Part shown: in pieces, positions 3,343 through 59,336 of the stretch | Layout: each line of letters starts with the position of its first letter | How positions within the stretch are numbered: position 1 is the stretch's first letter | DNA from: Selenomonas sp. TAMA-11512 | GTDB taxonomy: Bacteria > Bacillota > Negativicutes > Selenomonadales > Selenomonadaceae | NCBI RefSeq assembly: GCF_037076525.1 | Contig: NZ_AP029018.1 | Coordinates: forward strand, 434,001-498,000 | DNA length: 64,000 nucleotides | Direction of reading: 5' to 3' | The notes under the pieces: generated by a model | The model's database searches: none | The model's input: the letters and a program-made list of their open reading frames with translations, nothing else | Told to the model about the DNA's origin: nothing | Translations under genes and position numbers: made by a program

Positions 3343-3503
3343 TGGAAACGCTGATAAAATGAAGTCTGTCAGATTGGTGTGGATTTTTCGTTCTGTCAAG
3401 GAGGCAGCCCGGACGCAGAGTGGTGCTCTGTGGAGGAGCTGCCGACAAAGAGAGAGCGGAAAAGATACGCCAAGATGGCTGTGCTGCATTTATCAGCGCT
3501 TCC
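3343..3503 (-). repeat. MITE-like repeat, 161 bp, upstream of recA
   Basis: Terminal inverted repeats GGAAACGCTGATAAA and TTTATCAGCGCTTCC are flanked by TA at 3341-3342 and 3504-3505. The interior matches, in reverse orientation, the copies at 5107-5269 and 37913-38064 (shared blocks such as CCTCCACAGAGCACCACTCT). It has no coding capacity and ends 11 bases before the recA -35 box. Confidence 0.85.
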
Positions 3504-4671: not shown

Positions 4672-5107
4672 AAAGACGGCGCTTATGACCGCGACCGACC
4701 TCCTTGCACGCGCGGAGCAGAGCAGCGGACGCCTCAAGGACAAGCTGAGACTGCGCGGCTACGATGAGGCAGAGGCGGCGGAAGCCGTCGAGAAGCTTAC
4801 AGAGCGCGGCTACATCGATGATGCCGACGCGTGCCGAAGACAGTTTGACTTCCTCTATGAAGAGAGCCGGCAGAGCGTCCGACAGATCATGGCAAAGCTC
4901 CTGCAGCGGGGGTTTTCGCAGGAGCTCATACGATCCTGCGTGCCGGACGATATCTGCGAGCGTGAGAGGGCGGCGGCGATCCGCGCGCTGGAGCTGAAAT
5001 ACAAGCCCGACGCCGACCGGAAAAAGATGATGGAGCACCTCTACCGCAAGGGGTATGATTCGAGCGTGATTCGTAGCGCTGTGGAGGAGTTTGCCACCAT
5101 GATCTAG
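4649..5107 (+). CDS. recX: RecA regulator RecX
   Basis: RecX binds RecA filaments and modulates their activity. The repeated three-helix pattern is visible: [30 protein letters not shown], then [18 protein letters not shown], then [15 protein letters not shown] (each split by the family's Gly-Tyr/Phe turn). Two starts are possible: ATG 4649, overlapping recA by 23 bases (152 aa), or ATG 4685 (140 aa). Neither has a strong ribosome binding site, which suggests translational coupling to recA. The stop codon TAG at 5105-5107 is made from the TA target site plus the first base of the MITE inserted there. Confidence 0.9.
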
Positions 5108-5269
5108 GGAAGCACTGATAAATTCAGCCCGATCATCTTAGCACATCTTTTTTGCCCGCACTTCGGCGGCAAATCCTCCACAAAGCACCACTCTGCGTCC
5201 GGTTTGTCACCTTGTTCGGACGAAAAAATCTGTACTGATCTGACAGACTTCATTTTATCAGTGATTCCC
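5107..5269 (+). repeat. Full-length MITE-like repeat, 163 bp
   Basis: Left end GGGAAGCACTGATAAA, right end TTTATCAGTGATTCCC. TA duplications lie at 5105-5106 and 5270-5271. The interior is alignable with the copy at 37913-38064. It is non-coding. It fills most of the gap between recX and guaA; the remaining 80 bases before guaA show only a weak hairpin and no recognisable purine riboswitch. Confidence 0.9.
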
Positions 5270-5350
5270 TAGCGTTTCTTTATCGGAAACGGCGGCTACC
5301 GTACGGGCAGCCGGAAGAGATATGCGGAGAATGAAATCAGGAGAACGATT

Positions 5351-6907
<1,557 letters not shown>

Positions 6908-7302: not shown

Positions 7303-7698
7303 AGACACAAAGATATAAGAAGAGAATGTGAAGAGTTATGGGCAAAAAATAAATATTTTGTACTAAGCAAATCGCATAAAGCATATTTGGAGATAAGAGA
7401 GTACTTGAAAGGAACAGAATTGGATGTTTTATGGCTAAATGAAAAAATACAGGAAACAAGAGATATGAAGGAGAGTAAAAAAGATTTTAGTAATGCCGTT
7501 CTTCACATATGGGGATATTTCAAAAAGATGCAAGTACAATTGAAAACAGGTATTATTTGATATATTAAATGGATATTGAAGTGGTAAACTAAAACTGGAC
7601 ACAGAGGGGGTAGAAAATGGACACTGTTTGCAGTATCCTGTACACAGGATGACAGGCAGCGGACAGCCTATCTCCCGATGCAGACAGGAGGTTGCCAC

Positions 7699-8067
7699 GT
7701 GAAGTACACCAAGGAGCAACGTTTGGACATAGGCCGTCGGATCTACGACGGCGAGCTCACGAGATATGAAGCAGCAGAAGAATACGGGATCAGCGAGCAG
7801 ACCGCACGGGATTACATGCGCCACTACCGGGATGCCAACCAGCTCCCGCCGAAAAGGGGGGTGCGCAGCTGCTTGGGTCTTGCCAAGACCAAATCCATAC
7901 CAGTTCCCACCGGCCTGGAAGATCTCCAGTCCATGACGAAAAAAGAACTAATCGATGCCCTCGTTATGGCAAGGATCACAGAGGCACGCTTAAAAAAAGG
8001 TTATCTGGTGGAAGGAGTTGGTGCGGAAAAGACGTTCATTCCTATCGGCAGGAAGAATACCAAGTAG
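7699..8067 (+). CDS. IS3-family transposase OrfA
   Basis: This is the DNA-binding subunit of the element. The helix-turn-helix region is visible as RYEAAEEYGISEQTARDYM. It starts at GTG 7699 behind AGGAGG. Near its 3' end the run A7G at 7992-7999 is a classic slippery site: a -1 shift there enters the orfB frame, which is open through the junction. Without the shift, OrfA ends at 8067. Confidence 0.88.
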   Translation: MKYTKEQRLDIGRRIYDGELTRYEAAEEYGISEQTARDYMRHYRDANQLPPKRGVRSCLGLAKTKSIPVPTGLEDLQSMTKKELIDALVMARITEARLKKGYLVEGVGAEKTFIPIGRKNTK

Positions 8068-8069
8068 TC

Positions 8070-8939
8070 ATGGAGCTTTCCGGACAGTTCCCCATCCGGC
8101 TGCTCTGTACAAAGACCGGAATCCCACGCAGCAGCTTCTACAACTGGAAGAAGAGCGTGGAACATCCACCCGAACAGAAGAAACGGCTTGTGCAGAGCAT
8201 CGGATTGTTTCAGGAATACCATGGGCGCTTTCCCTCCCATGGCTACCGCTGGCTGAATGCCAAAATCCGATTGGACAAAGGAATCGTATTTTCCGATCCC
8301 TATGCCCATAAATGCTGTAAGATCGCAGGGATCAAGAGCCTTTGCAAACATTACAGCTACAAGAAGGAGGGCGATCCGTCCAGAACCTATCCGAACTTGT
8401 TGCTTGCAGGAATCAACATCACCGGCCCCATGGAATGTGTGGTGAGTGATATGACCGCCTTTTATGTGGAGCGCACATACTACGAGCTCACACTATATAT
8501 GGATTTGTGGAATGACGAGCTCATTGCCCACGCGCTCTCATCCAAGCGCGGCGATCGTATGACCTACCTCGACGGCTTGCAGGACGTGCTTGCGTTCAAG
8601 AAGCAGTATCCGAATCAGAAGCTCATCCTGCACAGCGATCAAGGCTCTGTTTACGCATCCAAGAGCTACAACGAACTCCTGCCCATGTACAACATTGTCA
8701 GGTCAATGTCCAGAGCCGGCACACCGACAGACAATGCCGCGATGGAGGCGATTAATGGTTGGATCAAGGCCGAACTCTTTACAGATTTCCATATTACTTC
8801 GCCGGAGAATGTCCCCGCTCAGGTATCCGACTACATCCGCTTCTTCAACGAGGAGCGCCCTGCATATGCCCTTGGATACCTTACGCCGAAGCAGTATCGG
8901 GAGCAGTTCGCGCCAAAGCACGAAGGTGCGGCTCCTTGA
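8070..8939 (+). CDS. IS3-family transposase OrfB (DDE integrase core)
   Basis: This is the catalytic subunit of the element, with an HTH_21-like region (YHGRFPSHGYRWLNAKI) and then the rve core. The DDE residues fit VVSDMTAFY (first Asp), LHSDQGSVYAS (second Asp) and TDNAAMEAINGW (Glu). The C-terminus has FNEERPAYALGYLTPKQYREQF, the usual IS3 ending. The listed ATG lies in a frame that is open back to the A7G site in orfA, so the active protein is probably the OrfAB fusion. No internal disruption is visible. Confidence 0.92.
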   Translation: MELSGQFPIRLLCTKTGIPRSSFYNWKKSVEHPPEQKKRLVQSIGLFQEYHGRFPSHGYRWLNAKIRLDKGIVFSDPYAHKCCKIAGIKSLCKHYSYKKEGDPSRTYPNLLLAGINITGPMECVVSDMTAFYVERTYYELTLYMDLWNDELIAHALSSKRGDRMTYLDGLQDVLAFKKQYPNQKLILHSDQGSVYASKSYNELLPMYNIVRSMSRAGTPTDNAAMEAINGWIKAELFTDFHITSPENVPAQVSDYIRFFNEERPAYALGYLTPKQYREQFAPKHEGAAP

Positions 8940-9176
8940 TACGTGTCCTTTGAATGGAGGTCATGGATATTCTGTGTATCACATCTTCGATGAATATGTA
9001 CAGTATCTCAATTCTAATGACTAATTTTTAGGTTTTTGTGTCCAGTTTTTGTTGACTAGTGCAATATATGGAAGGGGAAAATAATCAGAAGGTTGTAATT
9101 GAATGCATTAACATTTTACTAAAGAAATACCCTAATGAATATTTAGAAAAATCAACTTTGTTAACAGGAGAACAAT

Positions 9177-9545
9177 ATGAGACTATGGCATGAAAAACTT
9201 ATCCACTTATTGCCCAAAAATCAGCTTCTTGGACAACATAGGGAATGTTGTGCTCTGAGGGGCAATGGATGGAAAAAGAAACATAAAACTGTGGACTATG
9301 TGTTTACATATTCACCGTATCATCTTTTTATTTACCATGTATTGGTTATGGAGGAGATGGAAAAAAGAGGATATAATGTTTCTGCGGAATGGAAAGATAA
9401 AAATTATAGAGGAAGGACAGCAGAAAAGTACGATAATCTTAAAGAGGAAATTATAGGCAGTCCAATTTACAAAGAGCATAATATTGAATATTTGGCTGAT
9501 TGTATAGAAAATTTAAGAAATAAAGGTATACATTTAAAAGTATAG
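9177..9545 (+). CDS. TIGR02328-type protein, related to pyrimidine-dimer glycosylases
   Basis: The N-terminus MRLWHEKLIHLLPKNQLLG and HRECCALRGNGWKKKH are characteristic of TIGR02328 proteins, which belong near the Pyr_excise (T4 endonuclease V-like) superfamily. A DNA-repair or nucleic-acid glycosylase role would follow, but no function is established for this group and I treat it as inference. At 122 residues it is near the usual length. The ATG overlaps the end of the DUF1722 pseudogene. Codon use is AT-rich, suggesting transfer. Confidence 0.65.
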   Translation: MRLWHEKLIHLLPKNQLLGQHRECCALRGNGWKKKHKTVDYVFTYSPYHLFIYHVLVMEEMEKRGYNVSAEWKDKNYRGRTAEKYDNLKEEIIGSPIYKEHNIEYLADCIENLRNKGIHLKV

Positions 9546-9595
9546 AAGTTGTGGAGGAGTAAATTGATATAAAAATAAAAGAAGTTGAAGATAAA

Positions 9596-9970
9596 GTGGA
9601 AAAGGAAGCTGTATCAAGAGAAATATTATATGACCTTTCAGAATGGTTTGGAATACAGGAAAGCGTGGAAGAGTATATTCGTGATTCACAGGAAAAGCCT
9701 TTTCTTGATTGTTATATGAATGATGAGTCGGTTGGTTTTGTTGTATTAAATGCAACCAGCAAGGATTGTGCAGATATTTTTGTAATTGGCATAAAAAAGA
9801 AATTCCATCAAATGGGTATTGGATCAGTACTTAACGAAGCTTACGAAACTATGGCAAGGAAGCTGGGTTACGCATATTCACAGGTAAAAACGATACAGAT
9901 GAGGCACTACGAAGAATATGATATTGCCAATAATTTTTATATAGCTATGGGATATAAAGAATTGGAATGA
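9596..9970 (+). CDS. GNAT-family N-acetyltransferase, probably 3'-truncated
   Basis: Acetyl-CoA-dependent acetyltransferase fold: beta strands DCYMNDESVGFVVL, motif A as IGIKKKFHQMGIGSVL (Q/RxxGxG/A), then a C-terminal NNFYIAMGYKELE. In relatives the chain usually continues 15-20 residues after 'GYKELE', while here a stop follows and the downstream DNA is unrelated, so the end is probably lost. GTG 9596 is the first conventional start, but the frame is open back to ATT at 9563, directly after a strong GGAGGAG at 9553-9559, so translation may begin there with a rare start. Substrate unknown. Confidence 0.65.
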   Translation: MEKEAVSREILYDLSEWFGIQESVEEYIRDSQEKPFLDCYMNDESVGFVVLNATSKDCADIFVIGIKKKFHQMGIGSVLNEAYETMARKLGYAYSQVKTIQMRHYEEYDIANNFYIAMGYKELE

Positions 9971-10235
9971 CAGAAGCAAAGCAGAGGGAAAAGAGCGCTC
10001 TAGCCGCCAGCAGCTCTGCAAGCGATATTTATTTGGTATAATTTTTCATTCAGAAGGATTCAATGATACAATGGACATGGCGTAAATCTCCTTGGTAGAT
10101 GGCTGATTGCATTTCTATTGTACTAAGAAATAAGGTTTTACGCCTTTTTTATTTCCCGAAATATATGCTTTTCAAGGAATTATGCGGATGAAACTTGTAA
10201 TTTGCCAGGAGGGGTTCTCAAGGTGAGTTCTAAAG

Positions 10236-10335
10236 ATTTGGTGTGAATTAAAGACGCAGGGCTTTTGCAGCAAAGTCTTTCAGACATTGGATGTAGTCAT
10301 CGACCGTCTGTGCGCAGTAATCCAAAAGATTACAT
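10236..10335 (+). pseudogene. IS630-family transposase remnant (C-terminal piece)
   Basis: Translating this stretch gives KTQGFCSKVFQTLDVVIDRL and CAVIQK, nearly identical to the C-terminal part of the IS630 transposase at 18869-19902. Both flanks are unrelated DNA. The 265 bases before it (9971-10235) hold no gene I can support. Confidence 0.75.
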
Positions 10336-10339
10336 CTTT

Positions 10340-10622
10340 TAAGCGTGGATTCCGCATTGCCAAAAGGCCGTCACAGAATCGCATCTCCAAAGAATAGAGA
10401 GGAGAGAACTGGGACAGGAAGATGGAATACGAAAAGACTTCGGTTTGTAGCAAGGTGGAGCATCCGTTTTTGATTGTGAAACGGTTGTTTCGTGCGGGCA
10501 GAACACGGTATCGCGGAATCAAGAAGAACCTACCCCGGTACTATCTGCTCTTTGCGTCAGCGAATCTCGTTATGTGTCTGAGGGCAAGAAGACAAATGGA
10601 GTTTTGTATGACGACAGGATAA
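10340..10622 (+). pseudogene. IS5-family transposase remnant (C-terminal piece)
   Basis: The reading frame shows KRGFRIAKRPSQNRISKE, an in-frame TAG near 10394, then SKVEHPFLIVKRLF, TRYRGIKKNL and YYLLFASANLVMCLRARRQ, the typical end of IS5-group transposases. The N-terminal catalytic part is missing. Downstream (10623-10934) are probable IS terminal sequence, a MITE relic, and the AT-rich leader of the SIR2 gene. Confidence 0.75.
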
Positions 10623-10778: not shown

Positions 10779-10934
10779 AAAAATATTTGAAATATTAGAA
10801 AAGGTTTAGCTTTGTGAAAGATAAAATGATAAATTCTAACTTCATGATATGAATAAGTGTAGCTAGTTGCAGAATGAATATAAGTTTTAGAGTTTGGACA
10901 GAGATATATGGATAAATTATAGGAGAATTTGATA

Positions 10935-12074
10935 ATGGAAAGCGACAAGAAGATTTCATATTTCAAAGGAAAAAATGAGTCAAAAGTAGATGTTGATTAT
11001 ATTAAAACGGAAATCGCTCAGTTTTTACAATTGGATAATTTAAATTTTTTATTGGGCGCTGGTTGTTCTAGCCACGTAGAAGATGATATAGAGCAAGGGA
11101 TACCCGGGATGACTCATTTATATAAAGGCTTTTTTGAAAAGCACAAGGGATTTCAAATTGCTGGAAACGATGCAGAACCCATTTTCGATGGGAATTTAGA
11201 GAAAATGCTTGAAACAATGGGTGCCATTTCTATTGCTGGAAGAGTAAAACAAATTGATGGTGAAATAGATGAGAAAATTTGTATAGTACAGAAATATATT
11301 AGAGATAAAATTATTGAGGGACTGCACGGCATAGAGTTATTAAACTTTTATCGTAAGTTTTACATGAAGACTGTTGCTAGGGGAAGAAAAAATCCAATAA
11401 ATATTTTTACGACTAACTATGATTTATATAATGAGCAGGCATTGGATTCTCTATCCTTTCCATATAACAATGGATTTATTGGAACTTATAAAAGAACGTT
11501 TAATCCAGCTAGCTATAAGTATGCGTATGTTGAGGATATGAATTTATCTAAGAATGTGTGGGAAAGAGTGCCTAATTTTTATAATTTATATAAGATACAT
11601 GGTTCAATTTCCTGGGTTAAAAACGATAATAAGATTAATGAAATAGATTACAAACATATAAGTGAAGATGATACGGTCATGATTTATCCCACTCCATTAA
11701 AAGACAGGACCACTTTGATGACACCATATTCAGATTTATTTAGGGCAATGGAGACAGCATTACTTAGAAAAAATAGTGTTTTGATAACGTTGGGGTATAG
11801 CTTTGCAGATGAGCATATCAATAGACTTATATTGAATTCATTAGCTATACCAACGTTTAAACTTGTTGTATTTGGAAAAAGTAAAGTGATATCAAGATTA
11901 GTTAAAATGGATGATACACGTATTATAGTCATTAGTTCAGAAGATAAAATTCATTATTTCAAAAAATTTGTAGAAGAAGCAATGCCTGATATTCAAGAAG
12001 ATATTAAAGAGCAAATAGAATTACCTGTTGTTTCGGAATTTATAAGGGCGTTTGAGGGTGAAAAGAATGAGTAG
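10935..12074 (+). CDS. SIR2-domain protein of a SIR2-HerA antiphage system
   Basis: SIR2-like proteins of this kind hydrolyse NAD+ when a phage is sensed. Visible motifs are NFLLGAGCSS (Gly-Ala-Gly at 41-43), FTTNYDLYNEQ (Asn161, Asp163), KIHGSISW (catalytic His222) and LITLGYSFADEHINR near the C-terminus, the SIR2_2 pattern. The length is 379 residues. ATG 10935 is chosen because AGGAG at 10921-10925 has the right spacing; a TTG six bases upstream is too close. The stop overlaps the start of herA by 8 bases (ATGAGTAG), implying coupled translation and a shared complex. Codon use is strongly AT-rich compared with recA or guaA. Confidence 0.88.
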   Translation: MESDKKISYFKGKNESKVDVDYIKTEIAQFLQLDNLNFLLGAGCSSHVEDDIEQGIPGMTHLYKGFFEKHKGFQIAGNDAEPIFDGNLEKMLETMGAISIAGRVKQIDGEIDEKICIVQKYIRDKIIEGLHGIELLNFYRKFYMKTVARGRKNPINIFTTNYDLYNEQALDSLSFPYNNGFIGTYKRTFNPASYKYAYVEDMNLSKNVWERVPNFYNLYKIHGSISWVKNDNKINEIDYKHISEDDTVMIYPTPLKDRTTLMTPYSDLFRAMETALLRKNSVLITLGYSFADEHINRLILNSLAIPTFKLVVFGKSKVISRLVKMDDTRIIVISSEDKIHYFKKFVEEAMPDIQEDIKEQIELPVVSEFIRAFEGEKNE

Positions 12075-13920
12075 CCGCGAAATAGGAAGAATTACTTCTG
12101 TAGGTATTAATGGAGTAATTGCTGACGTGAATTCAGATTTAGGAAACTATATAAATACTATTGACGGAATCCTATTTGTAGGTGAGGTGGGATCATATGT
12201 GTCAATATATGAAATTGGTAGAACTATTATTGCGGAGATAGTTGGAGTAGATGAGAAAACACAATCAATTAATTCAGCTGAATTGGGCAAACCAAATAGT
12301 AGAAGACAAGTATACCTTAATTTGATTGGTGAAATAGTAGATGGTAAGTTTTACTTTGGTGTATCGAAAATGCCACTAATTTTTTCAAATGTTTATATGG
12401 TTTCACAAAAAGAACTTGTTACAATGCTTGAAGTTGGAAAGGAAGAAATAAAGATTTCTAAAGATTCAGACAAGACACGATCGGTCTTGCTTACGATAGG
12501 AAAATCTGTTATTTTCCCTGATTATCAAGTAAAAATAAACATTGATAAATTTTTTGGATTTCATTTCGCTGTCTTTGGGAACACTGGAGCTGGAAAGTCA
12601 AACACAGTTGCAAGAGTTTTACAGAATATTTTCGAAAAAGAAAATTATTCAGCAAAGGGAGCAAAATTTGTAATAATTGATTCGAATGGAGAATATAACA
12701 AGGCTTTTTCAAAGCTAAACGAGGTCAACTCACAAATTAAGCACTCACTTATGAGTACTGACGAGAATAGTGAAAATAAGTTTGAAATACCTGTTTGGGC
12801 ACTATCGGCAGATGATTGGGCTACATTGTTACATGCTTCTGAGAAAACCCAGATGCCTGTATTAAAAAGAGCAATAGATATTGCACGAGTTTTTTACAAT
12901 CCTGGTATACCTAATTATGAACTAAGAAATCATATTCTAGCATCTACTTTGCTTGGGATTATTCAAAGCTCAGATTCTTCTCCATCTAAGTCGGATAAGC
13001 TTAAAGCGATAGTTACCAAATTTGGTACTAATGGTATTAATATGAATTCAATTTTGTCAAATTCAAAAACATTAAGACAATCTATGGGTATAAGCTATGG
13101 TTCTATGCCAGATGAAGAAGTAGTTATTTCATTTTTATCAGATAATTTAAAGCCAGATGAAATTGCTGAAAATATTACGCGTTCGCTGGTTCCATATAGT
13201 TTGGAAGAATTTAGTCAAGCGGTTGAGTTTGCAACATTATATGAGGGGAGCATTAGCTCACAGAGGATACAAGAATATACTGCTACTCTAATGACTCGAT
13301 TACAGAGTCTTCAAGAAGGAATTCAGGGACGTATTTTCTCAAAGACAGAGTATAGGACTGTAGATGATTATATAGATATGTTGCTGGGAGAAAATCAAAT
13401 TGTAGATCTGGATATTAGTTCACTAGACGATGCATCAGCAGAGGTTGTAACTAAAGTTTTAGCTAAACTTTTATTAGATTATTTAAAAAGAAGTGAATTA
13501 AAAGCAGAAACACCGATTAATTTTATAATTGAAGAAGCACATAGATTCATCAAGAATGAAACAAATTATGGAGCCCTTGGATATAATATTTTTGAAAGAA
13601 TTGCTAAAGAAGGTCGCAAGTTTGGAATGCTTTTGGGGATTTCCTCGCAGAGACCAAGCGAATTATCAAAAACAGTAGTATCACAGTGTAGCAATTTCAT
13701 TGTACATCGCGTGCAAAATCCAGATGATTTACAATACATATCCAAAATGGTGCCATACATAAATCGGAATATGATAGAAAGACTTACTTATCTTCAAACT
13801 GGAAATGCGCTGGTTTTTGGTAGTGCGATTAATTTACCGACACTAACTAAATTTGCTCAAGCAAATCCGACAACGGATAGCGATAATGCAAGAATATCAG
13901 AAAAATGGTATATTGAGTAA
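12067..13920 (+). CDS. herA: HerA-type DNA-translocase ATPase of the SIR2-HerA system
   Basis: This is a hexameric FtsK/HerA-superfamily ATPase. It has an N-terminal HAS-barrel-like part (IGRITSVGINGVIADVNSDL), Walker A GNTGAGKSNT (171-180), Walker B with catalytic Glu in INFIIEEAHRF (484-494), and a sensor-type SSQRP (526-530) followed by a likely arginine finger region. At 617 residues it is full length. ATG 12067 follows GAGGGTG and overlaps the SIR2 gene. In characterised systems HerA assembles with SIR2 and both activities are needed for defence; a nuclease partner is not present here. Confidence 0.9.
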   Translation: MSSREIGRITSVGINGVIADVNSDLGNYINTIDGILFVGEVGSYVSIYEIGRTIIAEIVGVDEKTQSINSAELGKPNSRRQVYLNLIGEIVDGKFYFGVSKMPLIFSNVYMVSQKELVTMLEVGKEEIKISKDSDKTRSVLLTIGKSVIFPDYQVKINIDKFFGFHFAVFGNTGAGKSNTVARVLQNIFEKENYSAKGAKFVIIDSNGEYNKAFSKLNEVNSQIKHSLMSTDENSENKFEIPVWALSADDWATLLHASEKTQMPVLKRAIDIARVFYNPGIPNYELRNHILASTLLGIIQSSDSSPSKSDKLKAIVTKFGTNGINMNSILSNSKTLRQSMGISYGSMPDEEVVISFLSDNLKPDEIAENITRSLVPYSLEEFSQAVEFATLYEGSISSQRIQEYTATLMTRLQSLQEGIQGRIFSKTEYRTVDDYIDMLLGENQIVDLDISSLDDASAEVVTKVLAKLLLDYLKRSELKAETPINFIIEEAHRFIKNETNYGALGYNIFERIAKEGRKFGMLLGISSQRPSELSKTVVSQCSNFIVHRVQNPDDLQYISKMVPYINRNMIERLTYLQTGNALVFGSAINLPTLTKFAQANPTTDSDNARISEKWYIE

Positions 13921-14059: not shown

Positions 14060-15435
14060 TGGAAACTCAGCTCTACAGGTGAAAAAACATCCCACCTATG
14101 CACATTTTCACAGGTTTTATGACAGCAACATTGACAGTTCCGCCAGAAAGCCTTTCAGCAGCTCTTGTACCTTTCTTTCCCATTCGGAACATCCGTTCTT
14201 GAACGCGTGCGACAAACAGCGATACAAGAAGCCGCACCGCTTCGGCATAGCACGGGTCAGAAAGTTCGTCAATCGACAGATAAAATAACTCTCCTATGCT
14301 GCGCGCATCATTGGACGCTTAGTGCTCCACCACAAAAAACATGTGTCGTGTGAATACAATGGAAACATGTGCGGTCATCGCATCATATGAGAGGGAACGG
14401 CAATCCTTCTCCAAACGAAGATAACTCTTGCATACCTTGAAGAACACATCGATCTTCCAACGCTTTCCGTAGATGCGAATCACTTCCTCCTCCGTAAGGA
14501 AGATATCCGTTGTTACCAGAACGAGCCAGTCCTTGCGATTGTTACGGTTGCGGACGAAGACGAAGCGTAGAGGGATAGATTCGTCTCCCTTGCGGACGGT
14601 TGCTTCGACCGACAGCAGATATTTCGAGCGACCACGTCGTTTCTGGTACTTCTTGTAGATTTCCTTCACATCCTGCATCACACCTTCATGGAGGAGGTGC
14701 GTTTTTTCTGTTTTCTTGGCCATCGTGACGACTTCATAGCCAAGTCTGTGAATACGCAGGAGTGATACAGGAGAGCAGAACCACGTGTCGAACAAGAACT
14801 GGCGCGCAGGAATTGCCGCAGCCTTTGATTCCTCGAGAGGTTGGAGCATGACCTCGGTTGCCTTCCTTTATGCAAATTTACGTCCTTTGCCGCCGCTCGT
14901 GAGTGCATCCACCTTCTCGGAGGAGGCACACAGACGGTGCTTCCAATTCTCGGTCGACATAAGAGTAAGGCTGACGGGCAGGAGTGTGTTGCTGTCCGAA
15001 TGGCAGAGTGTGAGCATACGGAATCCGTAGGAGCATTCCTTTTTGGCATGGTCGTAAAGACGCGTCAGGAGTTCGACTCTCTTGGAGCGGGCGCGGTGAT
15101 AGATGGAGTCATCGAGAATGAGGACATTGATGCGATTTGCATTCGTCAAAGGAGCGATAGTGGATTGGATGATAGTTGCTGCCAGCAGCGTGATGAACCT
15201 GGGCCAATGGATATGGCAGGAGTTCATGAAGCGGTAGAAGATATCCTTGGCAAAGGGGACAGCATTCAGTTGGATGTGGATCTGCATGAAGAATGAGTGC
15301 TGGGTAAAGACAGTGTAGAGAATGCGATGAGGAAGATGCTTAGGACAGGGAAGCCACGAAGTTTGTAGGCGTTTGCAGAGTGCAGAATACGACTGACGTG
15401 ATAACGCCTGAGGAAATCTTGTATTTTCTCAGAAA
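14060..15435 (-). pseudogene. Decayed IS4-like transposase
   Basis: Read on the minus strand, pieces in different frames line up as one transposase: SEKIQDFLRRYHVSRILHSA and LRGFPVLSIFLIAFS (near 15330-15435), LILDDSIYHRARSK with the first catalytic Asp (near 15100), FLFDTWFCSP and TAHVSIVFTRHMFFVVEH (14319-14800), then, after an in-frame TAA, SIGELFYLSIDEL. At least three frame changes or stops are present, so it is dead. The 139 bases between herA and this remnant contain nothing recognised. I could not define its terminal repeats. Confidence 0.75.
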
Positions 15436-15478
15436 GCAGATTTTCAGAACGGTTGGTTTGTGTTATATTGTTTATGGC

Positions 15479-15718
15479 ATGAGCCCTCCATTGGATGTTT
15501 TTGGTTGCTACTTTAAATTATACCAAATGGATGTCGCTCATGTTGTTTTCTTTGCCATAAAGACAGATGTTTCAGGGAGGCAGCAGATTATTTATCTGCG
15601 AAGTTTGAGTGAATTAAGAGAACTGGCAGATAAACAAGATATCAAGTTTGAAGATATGGCAATCACAATGGCAGCATATATACTTGGATTTGGCAGTTAT
15701 ACCGGTTTTTTAAAATAG
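15479..15718 (+). CDS. Small unknown protein or gene fragment beside the CD-NTase
   Basis: I do not recognise this 79-residue reading frame (YFKLYQMDVAHVVFFAIKTD, LRELADKQDIKFEDMAI). The frame is open upstream to 15380, but that part overlaps the IS4 remnant, so the original 5' end was probably cut off. No ribosome binding site precedes ATG 15479. It ends 16 bases before the CD-NTase start and so may once have belonged to the same operon. Confidence 0.4.
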   Translation: MSPPLDVFGCYFKLYQMDVAHVVFFAIKTDVSGRQQIIYLRSLSELRELADKQDIKFEDMAITMAAYILGFGSYTGFLK

Positions 15719-15734: not shown

Positions 15735-18193
15735 TTGAAATTTACAGAAAAACAAATAAACAGGATGGCATCTCCTATTAGTCAGTCAGAAGATGAAAAG
15801 TGTAGAAATGCAATTCGCATGGTGCGAGATGCAATGAAAAAACTTAATTATACAGACGATGGAAAAGAAATTCGTTTTTATATGGAGGACACTTATTCAT
15901 ATGCTCTTGATTTACGGCAACAGCATACAAGCAAGAAAATAGCGTTGCTTGTTCAAGGCTCATATGCCAATAGGACAAATATTCCAACAGAAAGTGATGT
16001 TGATGTAGCGGTGATTTTGGAATCAACATTTATACCTAAGTATAGAAACGGAGTTACTGGTAGCGATTATGGTTTTAGTGATGGCACATTTTCTGTTTAT
16101 GAATTAAAGGATGAGGTTCAAGATGCATTGAATCGGCACTTTAAAGGTCAAGGGGTTGAAAGACATGATAAATGTATAAAAGTTATCGGAAATACATATC
16201 GAGTAGATGCAGATGTTGTGCCCGCATATAGGTATAGAGATTATTCTGATGATTATAGATATGATGCTAGTAATTATATTGGTGGTATTGAAATTAGACC
16301 AGATAGCGGAGGGAAAATAATTAATTATCCAGAACAACATATCCGTTTGGGTATAGATATGAACAAGGCGACAAAATATAATTTCAAAAAATGTGTTCGT
16401 ATAATTAAGAGCATGAGGGAAAGAATGGAAGAAAATGGATACGAAGTTAATTCAAAGATATCATCTTTTGGATTAGAGTCATTGCTTTGGAATGTGAATG
16501 TGTCTGCTTATACCAAATATTCAATGTTAAGATATACATTTGATGAAACTATTTCTTTTCTTAAGAATGACTTCGCTAATTTTGGGACCTACACAGAGAT
16601 AAATGGCATTAAGAGTCTTTTCCCTGATTTGGTAATACAAAATACTTTGCACTAGTCAACAAAAACTGGACACAAAAACCTAAAAATTAGTCATTAGAAT
16701 TGAGATACTGTACATATTCATCGAAGATGTGATACACAGAATATCCATGACCTCCATTCAAAGGACACGTATCAAGGAGCCGCACCTTCGTGCTTTGGCG
16801 CGAACTGCTCCCGATACTGCTTCGGCGTAAGGTATCCAAGGGCATATGCAGGGCGCTCCTCGTTGAAGAAGCGGATGTAGTCGGATCTGTCTTCCGGGGC
16901 TAATACTCCGGCGAAGTAATATGGAAATCTGTAAAGAGTTCGGCCTTCAATCCAACCATTAATCGCCTCCATCGCGGCATTGTCTGTCGGTGTGCCGGCT
17001 CTGGACATTGACCTGACAATGTTGTACATGGGCAGGAGTTCGTTGTAGCTCTTGGATGCGTAAACAGAGCCTTGATGGCTGTCCAGTAAGCTCTGATTCG
17101 GATACTGCTTCTTGAAGCGCAAGCACGTCCTGCAAGCCGTCGAGGTAGGTCATACGATCGCCGCGCTTGGATGACGTCGTGGGCAATGACTACGTCATTC
17201 CACAAATCCATATATAGTGTGAGCTGGTCCGTATGTGCGCTCCACATCAAAAGGCGGTCATATGGCTTCGCCACACATTCCGTGGGCGGCGATGTTGATT
17301 CCTGCAAGCAACAAGTTCGGATAGGTTATGGACGGATCGCCCTCCTTCTTGTGACTGTAATGTTTGCAAAGGCTCTTTAATGCCTGCAATCTACAGCATT
17401 TATATGGGCATAGGGATTCAAAGTACGATTCCTTTGTCCAATCGGATTTTGGCATTCAGCCAGCGGTAGCCATGGGAGGGAAAGCGCCCATGGTATTCCT
17501 GAAACAATCCGATGCTCTGCACAAGCCGTTTCTTCTGTTCGGGTGGATGTTCCACGCTCTTCTTCCAGTTGTAGAAGCTGCTGCGTGGATTCCGGTCTTT
17601 GTACAGAGCAGCCGGATGGGGAACTGTCCGGAAAGCTCCATGACTACTTGGTATTCTTCCTGCCGATAGGAATGAACTCTTTTCCGCACCAACTCCTTCC
17701 CCCACCAGATAACCTTTTTAAGCGTGCCTCTGTGATCCTTGCCATAACGAGGGCATCGATAGTTCTTTTTTCATAATGGACTGGAGATCTTCCAGGCCGG
17801 TGGGAACTGGTATGGATTTGGTCTTGGCAAGACCCAAGCAGCTGCGCACCCCCCTTTTCGGCGGGAGCTGGTTGGTATCCCGGTAGTGGCGCATGTAATC
17901 CCGTGCGGTCTGCTCGCTGATCCCGTATTCTTCTGCTGCTTCATATCTCGTGAGCTCGCCGTCGTAGATCCGACGGCCTATGTCCAAACGTTGCTCCTTG
18001 GTGTACTTCACGTGGCAACCTCCTGTCTGCATCGGGAGATAGGCTGTCCGCTGCCTGTCATCCTGTGTACAGGATACTGCAAACAGTGTCCATTTTCTAC
18101 CCCCTCTGTGTCCAGTTTTAGTTTACCACTTCAACTTATCAGAATTTTGTCAATGATTTGTGTGATTTTTATGAATATGACATTAAGGGGTAA
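15735..18193 (+). pseudogene. CBASS CD-NTase (cyclic-oligonucleotide synthase) split by IS3
   Basis: CD-NTases make a cyclic nucleotide signal on infection. The active-site loop is QGSYANRTNIPTESDVDVAV (Gly75-Ser76, Asp88 and Asp90), with a third acid in YRVDADVVPA (near 158-160). The start is TTG 15735 behind ACGGAGG. The 5' part runs 304 codons; the IS at 16648-18133 then adds Leu-His-stop. Removing the IS and one ACTT duplication restores the frame exactly: ...VIQNT-YQNFVNDLCDFYEYDIKG-stop, giving 322 residues and a typical CD-NTase C-terminus. The present product lacks the last 18 residues; whether it keeps activity is unknown. Confidence 0.88.
16648..18133 (-). mobile_element. IS3-family element, decayed inverted copy (1486 bp)
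   Basis: This is the same element as 7577-9063 in the opposite orientation, with both ends conserved and a 4-bp ACTT duplication at 16644-16647 and 18134-18137. Its orfA and orfB are broken by many small indels (for example around 17090-17110, 17180-17250, 17300 and 17680-17770), so it cannot encode transposase. It lies inside the CD-NTase gene. With the first copy it brackets 9.1-16.6 kb as an inverted pair. Confidence 0.92.
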
Positions 18194-18199
18194 TAACAA

Positions 18200-18754
18200 T
18201 TGGATAGTAAAATAACAAAATTATTGTCAAAAAGTTTGTGGATTGCATTGGCTTTATTTGCGATTCGTTATTTAATATGGAATTTTAATTCTTTATACGA
18301 CTTCATTGGAGCTGCGGGAGAGGTTATTTCTATTACAATAATCATTATGAGTTTATATAGTGGTTTTTTGTGGAGATATAATCCTTTTGAAAAAACACCT
18401 AAATTGATGGGTTTATATGAGGGGATTATAGAATATAATTATAATGGAGCTGTTGCAAAAAAAGATACATTTGTAAGAATAAGACAGACACTGCTTTCTA
18501 TTAAGATACAGATTACAACAAATGAAATAACAAGTAATACCATTGTTGCTAATCTTGTAGAAGAAAATGAGGAATATGTTTTATATTACACATACATAAC
18601 AAATCCCAAAAGTAAATATAGTAAAGGAAATCCAATACAGCATGGTACATGTAGGCTTATTTTAAGTGCCAAAGACTATTTGTCAGGTAAGTATTGGACT
18701 TCTCGACAGACAATAGGAGATATTGAATTGAAGAGAATAGATGATAGTAAATAG
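18200..18754 (+). CDS. cap15: CBASS effector Cap15 (two TM helices plus beta-barrel)
   Basis: Cap15 is a membrane effector: the cyclic nucleotide made by its CD-NTase binds the C-terminal beta-barrel and triggers inner-membrane disruption. Two N-terminal hydrophobic helices (about 11-29 and 33-57) are followed by a strand-rich domain (68-184) with LMGLYEGIIEYNYNG, IRQTLLSIKIQI, YYTYITNPKSKY and IQHGTCRL, ending GDIELKRI, which fits the Cap15 family. The start is TTG 18200; its SD-like AAGGGG lies inside the last codons of the CD-NTase, so the two genes formed a coupled two-gene operon. The gene itself looks intact but is now separated from its promoter by an IS. Confidence 0.82.
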   Translation: MDSKITKLLSKSLWIALALFAIRYLIWNFNSLYDFIGAAGEVISITIIIMSLYSGFLWRYNPFEKTPKLMGLYEGIIEYNYNGAVAKKDTFVRIRQTLLSIKIQITTNEITSNTIVANLVEENEEYVLYYTYITNPKSKYSKGNPIQHGTCRLILSAKDYLSGKYWTSRQTIGDIELKRIDDSK

Positions 18755-18858: not shown

Positions 18859-19983
18859 CTAATCTCAATTAAAAAATATTACATATCCATTCTCTAGATG
18901 TAATACTCCATACGGTATTTCTGGTAAGCTTTTGGATTGTTGCGCATAGACGGTCGATGACTGCATCCAGTGTCTGAAAGACTTCGTTGCAAAAGCCCTG
19001 CGTCCTTAATTCACGCCAAATCTGCTCGATTGGATTCATTTCCGGCGTGTATGGGGGAATATAAGTAATTGTCACATTGCTTGGTATTTGCAGTGCGTTC
19101 GATTTATGCCACGCCGCTCCATCACAAACAAGTACAAGGAGATCGTCTTTATATTCCTCAGAAAGTTCTTTTAAGAAAACATTCATGCACTCTGTATTGC
19201 AGTATGGCATGACAAGAAAGAAGTGTTCTCCTGTCAACGGTTCTACCGCACCATAAGCGTAGCGGTATTCCCGTATATGATGACATGGTACTTGCGGACG
19301 AATCCCTTTAGCACACCAGCAATGTTTCGGTTTGTTGATGCGTCCAAAGCCGGCTTCGTCTTGAAACAGGAGGCGGATCCTTTTTCTTGGATATTGTATA
19401 CAAAGCCCGTCTACGACTCCCTTAATTTTTTTGAGGCCTCGATCGCCTCTTCGTTTGCTTTTTTCGGGTGCTTGGAGCGCGGCATTATCTTACGCCAGCC
19501 ATGTCTTTTGAGCAACATATAGATATAGCCGCGTCCCGTATCTCTGCCCAGCTTTTCGTCAAAGATTGCCTTAATGTCTTTTACAACAACCACTTGACCT
19601 GCTTCTGCCTTCTTACGAAAACGCTCCAATATTTCCAGTTCTTCGGCTTCCGTCATGTTGCGATTGTTTCCCTTGTATTTATTCTCGAGAAAGGAGGCAA
19701 GGCCGTTTTTCTTGTATTCGCTCACCAGTTGGCTGATTCTCACTCTGCCAAGGCCAAGCCTATTTGCTGCTTCTATGTTACTCAAGCCTTCATAGCGAAG
19801 TATGAGTGCTCTTAATTTCCGTGATGTTTTCTTATCCTGTGTTGCCTTCTCCGCCGCTACGATCTTTTCATATTCTTCCGGTTCTATGGTGAATTTGCGC
19901 ATATGAGTTCTCCTATTCATTTTGATTACGCTTTTAGCATTATACCACAATAGAACAGACGAATCAATTTAGCTTGAGATTAG
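18859..19983 (-). mobile_element. IS630-family element
   Basis: Terminal repeats CTAATCTCAA (18859-18868) and TTGAGATTAG (19974-19983) are flanked by TA, the IS630 target: TA lies at 18857-18858 on the left. On the right the TA is now split by an ISLre2 insertion (T at 19984, and T-A again at 21561-21562). It holds one transposase gene with a likely frameshift site. A second, fragmentary copy is at 10236-10335. Confidence 0.88.
18869..19902 (-). CDS. IS630-family transposase, two frames joined by a -1 frameshift
   Basis: The 5' frame (19902 down to 19411, ATG in MRKFTIEPEEY) has the helix-turn-helix part: LSNIEAANRLGLGRVRISQL and the winged segment ending EASKK. At A7 (19425-19431 on the + strand) a -1 shift leads to the second frame, which carries the DDE core: LLFQDEAGFGR, VLVCDGAAWHKS and PPYTPEMNPIEQIW. 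Both halves are otherwise clean, so this may be programmed frameshifting, which occurs in this family, rather than decay. Confidence 0.82.
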
Positions 19984-19984
19984 T

Positions 19985-21552
19985 GTAAGTGTAAAATAGT
20001 TCTCGGAGGGGGTTGCAAAAAGAGAAAGAGACCAGTACCCTAAAGTGTATGCTAACGAGGCGAATACACAAGAAGGAAGGTCTCTTATGGAAACTATTGT
20101 AACAGAAATCCTGGAAATAATAAAGGGTACAAAAGACAATATCTCACAAGAAGAACAACTGCGCAGTTACTTTGAAACCCTGATATGCCGTGCAGTTAGT
20201 GAGGCATTCGAACGAATTGACAAAGAACTGGCAAAGCGATACGCAGCCAAAGGCTGGCACGTGGAACGGCTTGATGCACGGTGCGTGCAAGCAAGCTACG
20301 GAACGATTCAAATCCGTCGCAGGCGCATGAAAAAAGAAGGAGAAGCCAGTATATACCCCTTGGACAAAGAAGTGGGTATTCGCCCTTACCGGAGATACAC
20401 CGCCTATTTGGAATACGTTATTGCCTGTATTGCAGCCAAGAGCGTCTACCGTGATACAGCCGCTGTCGTCAACCTGCTGAGTCCCGTCACGATAAGCCAC
20501 CAACAAGTTGCACATGTCGTGAGACGAGTAGGAGAAACCTATGGTGCTTGGGAGAAATTGCAGGAAAGCACCGATCCCATGGAAGAGACAGAACTGCGCC
20601 GGCCGGAAGTTCTCTACATCGAAGGGGATGGACTCATGCTGCACGGGCAGAATAAGAAACAGCTCGAGCTCCATCGATTCCAAATCGCCGAAGGCGTACA
20701 AGAAAACGGCAACCGTCGTACCCTTATTGGCACCCACTATGTAGCGAATCTCGATCACGAGAAAGCCAAAGAGAGTCTGCTGCACTATCTGGGGAGCCAC
20801 TATGATCTAACCCATACCCTGGTTCTGAGCAACAGTGATGGAGGTGCCGGTTACACCTGCGGCGTCTTTGAAGAAATCCTTGGAAGCGTCGGCCAGCATG
20901 AGCACTTTCTGGATTGGTACCACGTACAAAGGAAATGCAGAGAACGCCTTTTATGGGCAAATTCGACCCTATACAAGAAACTATACAAAGCGCTGTATAC
21001 CCATGAACGCGAGGAAATGGGCCTAGTATTGGATACCGTGGAATCTATGTCCCAAGATGAGCGACAAACGGAACAAGTGGAGCTTCTTCGAAAGTACATA
21101 GAAAGAAACTGGATATACCTTGCCGGCTTGGAAGAACGAGGGATCGGGGAATACAGGAAGCTTTTGGGGACGTGTGAAAGCAACCATAGGCTCTACAGCT
21201 ACCGGATGAAGAAGCAAGGCAGACGATGGAGTCGAGCCGGTGGCGAAGCGATGGTAAAGATCATCACGGGATTGAAGAATGGTGATCTGCGAGAGGCCAT
21301 GGCGGCGAAGGCGGAGTGGTTCAATGCGAAGGCAGGAAGAGACTTCCGCGGAGCCGTGCGAGAGGCATTGAAAAGAAGCAAGAGGACGACGTATGACGGG
21401 GTCCGACACGGGAGGATTACAGTAAGTGCGCCGATGAGCAGTGGGATTGGACATTTGTCCAAATGCTTTGCTTAGAGGCAAAAAAAGACTATGCCACGAA
21501 GGCAGACACATCAAGGGGGAAAACTCACCACCGAGAAAATCTTGACACATAC
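19985..21552 (+). mobile_element. ISLre2-family element, copy 1 (1568 bp)
   Basis: The ends GTAAGTGTAAAATAGTTCTC and (inverted) GTATGTGTCAAGATTTTCTC are related terminal repeats. The 9-bp duplication GAGATTAGT lies at 19976-19984 and 21553-21561. The insertion is in the outer end of an IS630 terminal repeat. An equally long copy is at 57769-59336. Confidence 0.95.
20087..21475 (+). CDS. ISLre2-family (UPF0236) transposase
   Basis: This 462-residue transposase of the UPF0236/ISLre2 type has VLYIEGDGLMLHGQNKK (probable first catalytic Asp) and LVLSNSDGGAGYTCGVFEEI and HEHFLDWYHVQRKC (second region). The C-terminal end reads RHGRITVSAPMSSGIGHLSK. Start ATG 20087 follows AAGGAAGG; an upstream ATG at 20045 in the same frame lacks a good ribosome binding site. 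It is uninterrupted and almost identical to the copy on the minus strand at 57846-59234, pointing to recent transposition. Confidence 0.92.
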   Translation: METIVTEILEIIKGTKDNISQEEQLRSYFETLICRAVSEAFERIDKELAKRYAAKGWHVERLDARCVQASYGTIQIRRRRMKKEGEASIYPLDKEVGIRPYRRYTAYLEYVIACIAAKSVYRDTAAVVNLLSPVTISHQQVAHVVRRVGETYGAWEKLQESTDPMEETELRRPEVLYIEGDGLMLHGQNKKQLELHRFQIAEGVQENGNRRTLIGTHYVANLDHEKAKESLLHYLGSHYDLTHTLVLSNSDGGAGYTCGVFEEILGSVGQHEHFLDWYHVQRKCRERLLWANSTLYKKLYKALYTHEREEMGLVLDTVESMSQDERQTEQVELLRKYIERNWIYLAGLEERGIGEYRKLLGTCESNHRLYSYRMKKQGRRWSRAGGEAMVKIITGLKNGDLREAMAAKAEWFNAKAGRDFRGAVREALKRSKRTTYDGVRHGRITVSAPMSSGIGHLSKCFA

Positions 21553-37758: not shown

Positions 37759-38129
37759 GTGAAGGAGAGGCTTTCTATAAAACGACTTAGCCTATGGGTT
37801 CTTGCGCCTGCGCTTATGCTCGGCGCGCCTGTCGCGCAGGCGACTGTCGTCTATCCCGATGCAAAGCCGTCGTATGCGCTCATCTATATCTACGAAGACC
37901 TAGGGAAGCACTGATAAATGCAGCACAGCCATCTTGGCGCATCTTTTCCGCTCTCTCTGCGTCGGCAAATCCTCCACAGAGCACCACTCTGCGTCCGGTT
38001 TGCCTCCTTGACAGAACGGAAAATCTACACCAATCTGACAGACTTCATTTTATCAGTGCTTCCCTAGAGGACACAGCGACCGTCACCCACATCGCCCAAC
38101 TTGACGTCGCAGAGCATTCGGGACAGTAA
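37759..38129 (+). pseudogene. Small secreted-protein gene interrupted by a MITE
   Basis: A frame from GTG 37759, four bases after serA, has a signal peptide (SIKRLSLWVLAPALMLGAPV, then AQA/TVVYPD) and runs into the MITE at 37913, giving a premature end (YEDLGKH-stop). Removing the MITE and one TA restores the frame: IYIYEDLEDTATVTHIAQLD, then VAEHSGQ-stop. The undisturbed product would be about 68 residues. The AAGGAGAGG nearby precedes an ATA codon (37777) that would be the ideal start if it were ATG. Function unknown. Confidence 0.75.
37913..38064 (+). repeat. Full-length MITE-like repeat, 152 bp, inside a gene
   Basis: The ends GGGAAGCACTGATAAA and TTTTATCAGTGCTTCCC are nearly perfect inverted repeats, flanked by TA at 37911-37912 and 38065-38066. 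The interior aligns with 5107-5269 and, reversed, 3343-3503. No open frame of its own. Confidence 0.92.
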
Positions 38130-57768: not shown

Positions 57769-59336
57769 GTATGTGTCAAGATTTTCTCGGTGGTGAGTTT
57801 TCACCCTTGATGTGTCTGCCTTCGTGGCATAGCCTTTTTTTGCCTCTAAGCAAAGCATTTGGACAAATGTCCAATCCCACTGCTCATCGGCGCACTTACT
57901 GTAATCCTCCCATGTCGGATCCCGTCATACGTCGTGCTCTTGCTTCTTTTCAATGCCTCTCGCACGGCTCCGCGGAAGTCTCTTCCTACCTTCTCATTGA
58001 ACAATTCCGCCTTTGCTGCCATGGCCTCTCGCAGATCACCATTCTTCAATCCAGTGATGATCTTTACCATCGCTTCGCCGCCGGCTCGACTCCATCGTCT
58101 GCCTTGCTTCTTCATCCGGTAGCTGTAGAGCCTATGGTTGCTTTCACACGTCCCCAAAAGCTTCCTGTATTCCCCGATCCCTCGTTCTTCCAAGCCGGCA
58201 AGGTATATCCAGTTTCTTTCTATGTACTTTCGAAGAAGCTCCACTTGTTCCGTTTGTCGCTCATCTTGGGACATAGATTCCACGGTATCCAATACTAGGC
58301 CCACTTCCTCACGCTCATGTATATACAGCGCTTTGTGTAGTTTCTTACACAGGGTCGAATTCGCCCATAAAAGGCGTTCTCTGCATTTTCTTTGTACGTG
58401 GTACCAATCCAGAAAGTGCTCATGCCGGCCGACGCTTCCAAGGATTTCTTCAAAGACGCCGCAGGTGTAACCGGCACCTCCATCACTGTTGCTCAGAACC
58501 AGGGTATGGGTTAGATCATAGTGGCTCCCCAGATAGTGCAGCAGACTCTCTTTGGCTTTCTCGTGATCGAGATTCGCTACATAGTGGGTGCCAATAAGGG
58601 TACGACGGTTGCCGTTTTCTTGCACGCCTTCGGCGATTTGGAATCGATGGAGCTCGAGCTGTTTCTTATTCTGCCCGTGCAGCATGAGTCCATCCCCTTC
58701 GATGTAGAGAACTTCCGGTCGGCGCAGTTCTGTCTCTTCCATGGGATCGGTGCTTTCCTGCAATTTCTCCCAAGCACCATAGGTTTCTCCTACTCGTCTC
58801 ACGACATGTGCAACTTGTTGGTGGCTTATCGTGACGGGACTCAGCAGGTTGACGACAGCGGCTGTATCACGGTAGACGCTCTTGGCTGCAATACAGGCAA
58901 TAACGTATTCCAAATAGGCGGTGTATCTCCGGTAAGGGCGAATACCCACTTCTTTGTCCAAGGGGTATATACCGGCTTCTCCTTCTTTTTTCATGCGCCT
59001 GCGACGGATTTGCATGGTTCCGTAGCTTGCTTGCACGCACCGTGCATCAAGCCGTTCCACGTGCCAGCCTTTGGCTGCGTATCGCTTTGCCAGTTCTTTG
59101 TCAATTCGTTCGAGTGCTTCGCTAACTGCACGGCATATCAGGATCTCAAAGTAACTGCGCAGTTGTTCTTCTTGGGAGATATTGTCTTTTGTACCCTTTA
59201 TTATTTCCAGGATTTCTGTTACAATAGTTTCCATAAGAGACCTTCCTTCTTGTGTATTCGCCTCGTTAGCATACACTTTAGGGTACTGGTCTCTTTCTCT
59301 TTTTGCAACCCCCTCCGAGAACTATTTTACACTTAC
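57769..59336 (-). mobile_element. ISLre2-family element, copy 2 (1568 bp)
   Basis: Same length and ends as the copy at 19985-21552, in the opposite orientation. The 9-bp duplication TTTCAGATT lies at 57760-57768 and 59337-59345. It is inserted in an IS1182-like remnant downstream of rplL. Confidence 0.95.
57846..59234 (-). CDS. ISLre2-family (UPF0236) transposase, copy 2
   Basis: 462 residues, differing from copy 1 at only a scatter of positions (for example LFNEKVGRD here against WFNAKAGRD, and VRKWA-type changes near HEREEVGLV). Catalytic regions VLYIEGDGLMLHG, SNSDGGAGYTCG and LDWYHVQRKC are unchanged. The start is taken as the ATG behind AAGGAAGG, as in copy 1. No disruption, so it is potentially active. 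Confidence 0.92.
   Translation of the reverse strand: METIVTEILEIIKGTKDNISQEEQLRSYFEILICRAVSEALERIDKELAKRYAAKGWHVERLDARCVQASYGTMQIRRRRMKKEGEAGIYPLDKEVGIRPYRRYTAYLEYVIACIAAKSVYRDTAAVVNLLSPVTISHQQVAHVVRRVGETYGAWEKLQESTDPMEETELRRPEVLYIEGDGLMLHGQNKKQLELHRFQIAEGVQENGNRRTLIGTHYVANLDHEKAKESLLHYLGSHYDLTHTLVLSNSDGGAGYTCGVFEEILGSVGRHEHFLDWYHVQRKCRERLLWANSTLCKKLHKALYIHEREEVGLVLDTVESMSQDERQTEQVELLRKYIERNWIYLAGLEERGIGEYRKLLGTCESNHRLYSYRMKKQGRRWSRAGGEAMVKIITGLKNGDLREAMAAKAELFNEKVGRDFRGAVREALKRSKSTTYDGIRHGRITVSAPMSSGIGHLSKCFA

Follow-up and report, generated by a model that had tools for sequence, protein, structure and literature searches.

A probable SIR2-HerA antiphage module in foreign DNA downstream of guaA in Selenomonas sp. 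TAMA-11512

The SIR2 and HerA genes

We analyzed a 64,000-nt stretch of the Selenomonas sp. TAMA-11512 genome (NZ_AP029018.1, 434,001 to 498,000, forward strand; hereafter the window, in whose own numbering its coordinates are given). It contains a gene for a SIR2 protein followed by one for a HerA protein, with the 8-bp overlap that a first-pass annotation of this DNA had described (Table 1). The SIR2 frame runs uninterrupted from an ATG at 10935 to a TAG stop at 12072-12074, and the HerA frame from an ATG at 12067 to a TAA stop at 13918-13920. For SIR2, this start was preferred over a TTG at 10929 because of the position of the AGGAG, judged by eye. With open frames and catalytic positions retained, both genes are intact, as had been proposed.

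Table 1 Features in and around the SIR2-HerA pair of the window.
Feature	Position	Strand	Remarks
guaA (GMP synthase)	5351..6907	+	housekeeping gene; upstream of the foreign stretch
IS3-family copy	7576-9064		
IS630 piece	10234-10333		inverted copy of 18924-19023
IS5 piece	10422-10622		
Likely SIR2 ribosome-binding site, AGGAG	10921..10925	+	by eye; 9 nt before ATG
SIR2 NADase subunit	10935..12074	+	379 aa; N161, Y162, D163 and H222 present
Possible HerA ribosome-binding site, GAGGGTG	12054..12060	+	by eye; inside the SIR2 3' end
Gene overlap, 8 bp, ATGAGTAG	12067..12074	+	common to SIR2 end and HerA start
HerA hexameric ATPase subunit	12067..13920	+	617 aa; Walker A 171-178, Walker B region 487-492
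IS4 piece	14319-15287		
CBASS cyclase	15735-16655		
Second IS3-family copy	16647-18134		
CBASS Cap15-type effector	18200-18754		
IS630 pieces	18869-19950		
ISLre2	19985-21552		

The GAG, TTNYD and catalytic HGS motifs attributed to SIR2 are present, as GAGCSS from residue 41, TTNYD from 159 (N161) and HGS from 222 (H222), together with GYSF from 287. In HerA, Walker A reads GNTGAGKS and the Walker B region IIEEAH, and both are intact, again as annotated. Neither the catalytic histidine nor the asparagine has been lost: N161, Y162, D163 and H222 do not vary among the 19 aligned SIR2 proteins (20 loci minus L045, whose frame is unresolved; L046 and L049 enter without their N termini owing to the chosen start). 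K177, the lysine of Walker A, is likewise invariant across the 19 aligned HerA proteins, and E490 is found in 18 of them, all but L034, which is truncated at the end of its record. In DSR2, NAD+ degradation fell when the equivalent Y, D or H was mutated, and the same residues are described as conserved in Sir2-HerA (PMC11263360; this and the other PMC papers are cited from excerpts).

Profile searches for SIR2_2 and HerA, which the first-pass annotation had proposed, matched both proteins far beyond chance. SIR2 matched Pfam SIR2_2 (PF13289) at E 8.9e-13 and the PADLOC SIR2 model PDLC04084 at E 1.6e-99, and HerA matched Pfam DUF87 at E 4e-26 and the PADLOC HerA model PDLC04102 at E 6.6e-174. 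For each protein the best PDB match was in entry 8yhx of one complex, 8yhx/8yho (SIR2 9e-41, HerA 3.4e-47); HerA aligned with it over residues 5-593, whereas SIR2 aligned well just over residues 131-348. This complex may be SaSir2-HerA from Staphylococcus aureus (Zhen et al. 2024); an activation helix has been described for the S. aureus SIR2 protein. HerA gave no separate Pfam match for a HAS barrel at E 0.001; the PADLOC HerA model and 8yho align from its residues 3 and 5, which may reflect a HAS barrel at the N terminus. Against the NCBIfam antiphage equivalogs, which are narrow models that we did not take as defining the SIR2-HerA system, both proteins scored well below the cut-offs (SIR2 119.6 versus 500 bits, HerA 204.1 versus 800 bits). 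The pair thus belongs to a diverged branch of SIR2-HerA.

The 8-bp overlap was found in 6 of 18 resolved SIR2-HerA pairs (the 20 loci minus L048, for which no HerA was given, and L045): the window, genomes G080 (locus L040) and G134 (L041), Listeria (L032), Enterococcus casseliflavus (L033) and the distant L039, with annotation in agreement for Listeria, Enterococcus and L039. Of the intact relatives that we examined, the four whose SIR2 identity is 49% or higher are all among these six. In L034 (47%), the overlap site lacks an ATG, and the overlap is 11 or 20 bp. The overlap is 4 bp in L036, L037 and L038 and, by one possible start, in L049; because the HerA start is ambiguous in several pairs, lengths other than 8 and 4 bp are approximate. 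Since it is common to the close relatives, the 8-bp overlap is an inherited trait of this branch. It had been taken to imply equal translation of the two genes, a claim that our findings do not support. The complex is listed with a HerA-Sir2 stoichiometry of 6:12 in a review table (PMC12948488), and the window HerA has its own GAGGGTG, with a GGAGG at about the same place in L041, L032 and L033. Coupling of SIR2 and HerA translation is plausible, but the inherited overlap, given a 6:12 complex, is no sign of equal translation.

Foreign DNA around the pair

Sequence composition sets the pair apart from its surroundings, with a GC content of 0.314 for SIR2 and 0.335 for HerA versus 0.519 for the window, and a GC3 of 0.268 and 0.227, respectively, versus 0.802 for guaA. 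This bears out the AT-rich codon use noted previously, and the IS remnants said to flank the pair are likewise found, with IS5 and IS630 pieces on the left and an IS4 piece on the right. The nearby CBASS, described as split, is interrupted by the second IS3-family copy, which cuts into the cyclase frame at its 3' end and parts the cyclase from an effector that aligns with its model over nearly the entire length. Acquisition of the pair as foreign DNA is well supported by composition, by IS debris and by the position of relatives at guaA (below), though these do not support the earlier suggestion that it was recent.

Other low-GC3 genes lie beside the pair, at 9177-9545, 9596-9970 and 15380-15718, and encode a TIGR02328/Pyr_excise protein, a GNAT acetyltransferase and a 112-aa ORF, the last of which matched nothing in Pfam, PADLOC or NCBIfam at E 0.001. 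The window also holds two ISLre2-family copies in opposite orientation (19985-21552 and 57769-59336), which are 97.7% identical, and ~160-bp repeats, 78-92% alike, at 3344-3503 and 5101-5272, around recA-recX-guaA, and at 37904-38063.

A stretch so filled with IS3, IS4, IS5, IS630 and ISLre2 copies or pieces, in which the adjacent CBASS cyclase is interrupted, could be decaying, with the pair as an intact-looking but silent passenger. A promoter scan found 11 promoter-like sites versus a mean of 16.9 in shuffled sequence, that is, fewer, and so supported no convincing promoter, as expected under this explanation. Nonetheless, both frames are open and the catalytic positions are all kept, which is unexpected for a long-silent gene, and SIR2 has a good ribosome-binding site as judged by eye. 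We therefore regard a silent passenger as improbable.

Position downstream of guaA

HerA proteins with at least 65% identity to that of the window were found outside the host only in G080, of the same family (87%), and G134, from a different family of the class (65%), among 200 genomes searched, the host's own included. In all three genomes the pair lies downstream of guaA and in the same orientation. In G080, homology with its genus-mates G072 and G020 is lost 7-14 bp beyond the stop codon of guaA and returns after ~8.4 kb, directly ahead of a gene that we read as arsC-like. In place of this insert, G072 and G020 have about 100 and 55 bp, respectively; its GC content is 0.354 versus 0.471 beyond it. 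In G134, GAGTGGGAATAA, the 12 bases with which guaA ends, has a single perfect copy within 15.9 kb downstream of the gene, 153 bp after the HerA stop. The number expected by chance is 0.0017 for one word on one strand under a first-order model, to be read with several words, loci and mismatch levels having been tried. The last 12 bases were tried after we had met GAGTGGGA as the GIsul2 site, and longer words gave nothing. No repeat of the guaA 3' end was found in the window or G080 using the last 12 or 18 bases with at most one mismatch. At two mismatches, the 12-base word had seven other matches in the window, one of them 33 bp before SIR2, a number that looks like chance, and we rejected this candidate. 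The diverged branch is thus found 3' of guaA in three genomes from two families, with one empty-site comparison and one direct repeat of the guaA end. The L041 segment bounded by the 12-bp repeat encodes a DNA methylase, an unknown protein, SIR2 and HerA, with no integrase among its larger ORFs.

Integration at this gene has precedents. The integration site of GIsul2 is GAGTGGGA, within the 3' end of guaA (PMC9376610), and streptococcal ICEs, for which guaA is also a target, have direct repeats that match the 3' end of this gene exactly (PMC4701971). A defence island beside guaA is as such already known, a guaA-flanked island being the most diverse described in Stenotrophomonas maltophilia (PMC11680222); the excerpt of that paper makes no mention of SIR2-HerA at guaA.

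We also considered whether the DNA downstream of guaA is a defence hotspot in the family of the host, scanning 40 downstream regions from 121 genomes, hand-chosen for good assemblies (the region of L097 spanning just 3.2 kb). The scan covered 230 proteins, from ORFs of at least 170 aa starting in the first 7.6 kb, with cut-offs of E 1e-15 for PADLOC and E 1e-5 for Pfam. Among the families listed there were scattered restriction, AbiE, Thoeris, Juk and other matches; because the counts are not per genome and have no control region, we claim no enrichment. By similarity clustering, no gene downstream of guaA recurred in over 5 of 43 regions. In 4 of 40 host-family genomes (L089, L105, L114 and L118), an integrase from a single similarity cluster lies within ~1.3 kb of guaA, and Pfam found three tyrosine integrases, among the families listed, in a second set of guaA-downstream proteins.

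The relatives in DNA inserted behind guaA, together with matches of SIR2 to 523 plasmid records and, weakly, to 3 phage records, could mean that the pair acts mainly on other mobile DNA, such as plasmids or competing integrative elements, or stabilises its carrier element, rather than acting on lytic phages. However, defence genes generally ride on mobile DNA, so that location does not part the two readings, and the SIR2-HerA systems that have been studied act on phages (PMC11559045, PMC12322248). We give a role of this kind little credence beside one in antiphage defence.

HerA phylogeny

In a tree of 36 HerA proteins, that of the window falls in a clade of five SIR2-linked HerAs (support 100/99), together with G080, G134, Listeria and Enterococcus casseliflavus. 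Grouping with a non-defence HerA clade, the outcome that the first-pass annotation had said would count against a defence pair, is therefore not what we found. The tree excludes the truncated HerA of L034 and nine distant or long-branch rows (L017, L018, L021, L023, L025, L027, L029, L030 and L052). In L047 and L048, a 332-aa SIR2-like protein, labeled by eye from its N terminus, lies upstream of HerA.

The nearest neighbour group of the window clade, joined to it at 97/95, consists of HerA proteins without SIR2; the tree was midpoint-rooted for drawing, and whether the two are sisters depends on the root. One such HerA, in L031 (Bacilli bacterium isolate RUI363), lies at 7851-9605 between recA-RNase Y and RNase J as read by eye. 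The small-genome Bacilli to which it belongs are perhaps RF39. A literature search on RF39 and HerA returned nothing related by title. Among 117 genomes of L031 relatives, HerA was found in 69, comprising 68 of the 70 genomes G200-G269 (all but G231 and G242) and 1 of the 47 others; that these first 70 form the nearer group is judged from the order of their handles. Two HerA matches were found in 51 of the 68 genomes, one of the two being partial in G220 and G237. SIR2_2 was found in none of the 49 genomes sampled from G200-G269 and in 3 of 31 others (control, 2 of 14 genomes), and NurA exceeded its cut-off in none of 80 genomes (control, 7 of 14), two weak matches scoring below. In the tree, 16 of these HerAs make up a single clade (100/99) with two subclades (81/83 and 100/98), a pattern suggestive of an early duplication. 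Among 30 such genes, RNase Y was found within 1.5 kb in 4 cases and RNase J in 5, low counts indicating that the neighbours are mostly not conserved.

Its proximity to a group that lacks SIR2 and is near-universal in this set of small-genome Bacilli raises the question of whether the window HerA is a housekeeping DNA translocase with a SIR2 partner rather than a defence protein. The SIR2-linked clade (100/99), the foreign composition of the pair and the restriction of close HerA homologs, among the 200 genomes searched, to G080 and G134 besides the host, which is not that of a core gene, all argue against this, and we consider it highly improbable. Possible, if rather doubtful, is a broader scenario in which the window HerA lineage is the direct sister of a near-universal, anciently duplicated HerA of small-genome Bacilli without SIR2 or NurA, immune ATPase and housekeeping translocase having interconverted, and in which guaA-targeting elements are a standing carrier of this SIR2-HerA branch. 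The SIR2-less neighbour group would allow one to ask in which direction immune and housekeeping HerA evolved.

Proposed function

Our combined findings suggest that this locus is very probably an intact two-gene antiphage module of the SIR2-HerA type (Nezha, Gao19) in foreign DNA downstream of guaA, whose complex would deplete NAD+ and halt the infected cell. The PADLOC, Pfam and PDB matches, the catalytic residues, the two-gene order shared with plasmid-borne pairs and the HerA clade all uphold the initial identification of a SIR2-HerA antiphage pair, and we count the nearby CBASS genes as further support for defence. Judged by its sequence, the pair is an ordinary, well preserved further member of an already known system.

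Published relatives indicate how such a module may work. Sir2 NADase function and a 6:12 complex have been described (PMC11263360, PMC12198126, PMC12948488), the latter as a two-layer Sir2 dodecamer on a HerA hexamer (review, PMC12198126), and in S. aureus the binding of HerA opens the NAD+ pocket of SIR2, as reported secondhand in the same review. Most likely, therefore, a SIR2 dodecamer in two layers would dock on a HerA hexamer, assembly together with a phage cue would open the SIR2 pocket, and NAD+ would be hydrolysed, the complex possibly also acting as a nuclease with ATP-driven handling of DNA. The infected cell would then stop growing before phage release. Accounts of the known systems differ, with degradation of phage genes by the complex in one review table (PMC12198126) versus NAD depletion in the title of the Vibrio cholerae paper (PMC11559045), and the activation mechanism is called unclear in the review table (PMC12198126). 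We infer that the window copy is expressed and protects its host.

Among the closest systems with the same gene order are the plasmid pairs of Listeria (L032) and Enterococcus casseliflavus (L033), which share 49-50% SIR2 and 52-53% HerA identity and the 8-bp overlap with the window pair but are plasmid-borne rather than at guaA. We know of no function assigned to them. The two-gene order is also kept on Lactiplantibacillus and enterobacterial plasmids. Nezha (SIR2-herA) of Vibrio cholerae, where SIR2-HerA restricts phage ICP1 (PMC11559045), and Gao19 homologs of Streptococcus thermophilus consist of the same kinds of genes and have reported antiphage activity (PMC11559045, PMC12322248); we liken them to the window pair by gene kinds, not by sequence. 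Two Gao19 homologs themselves share just 17.9% (SIR2) and 22% (HerA) identity (PMC12322248). HerA-DUF4297 also combines a HerA hexamer with a 12-subunit effector (PMC12198126), but that effector is a nuclease instead of SIR2. One HerA in our tree, that of L044, has a partner that is DUF4297-like by eye from its N terminus; it was included in no group count and was placed among SIR2-linked rows, far from the window HerA.
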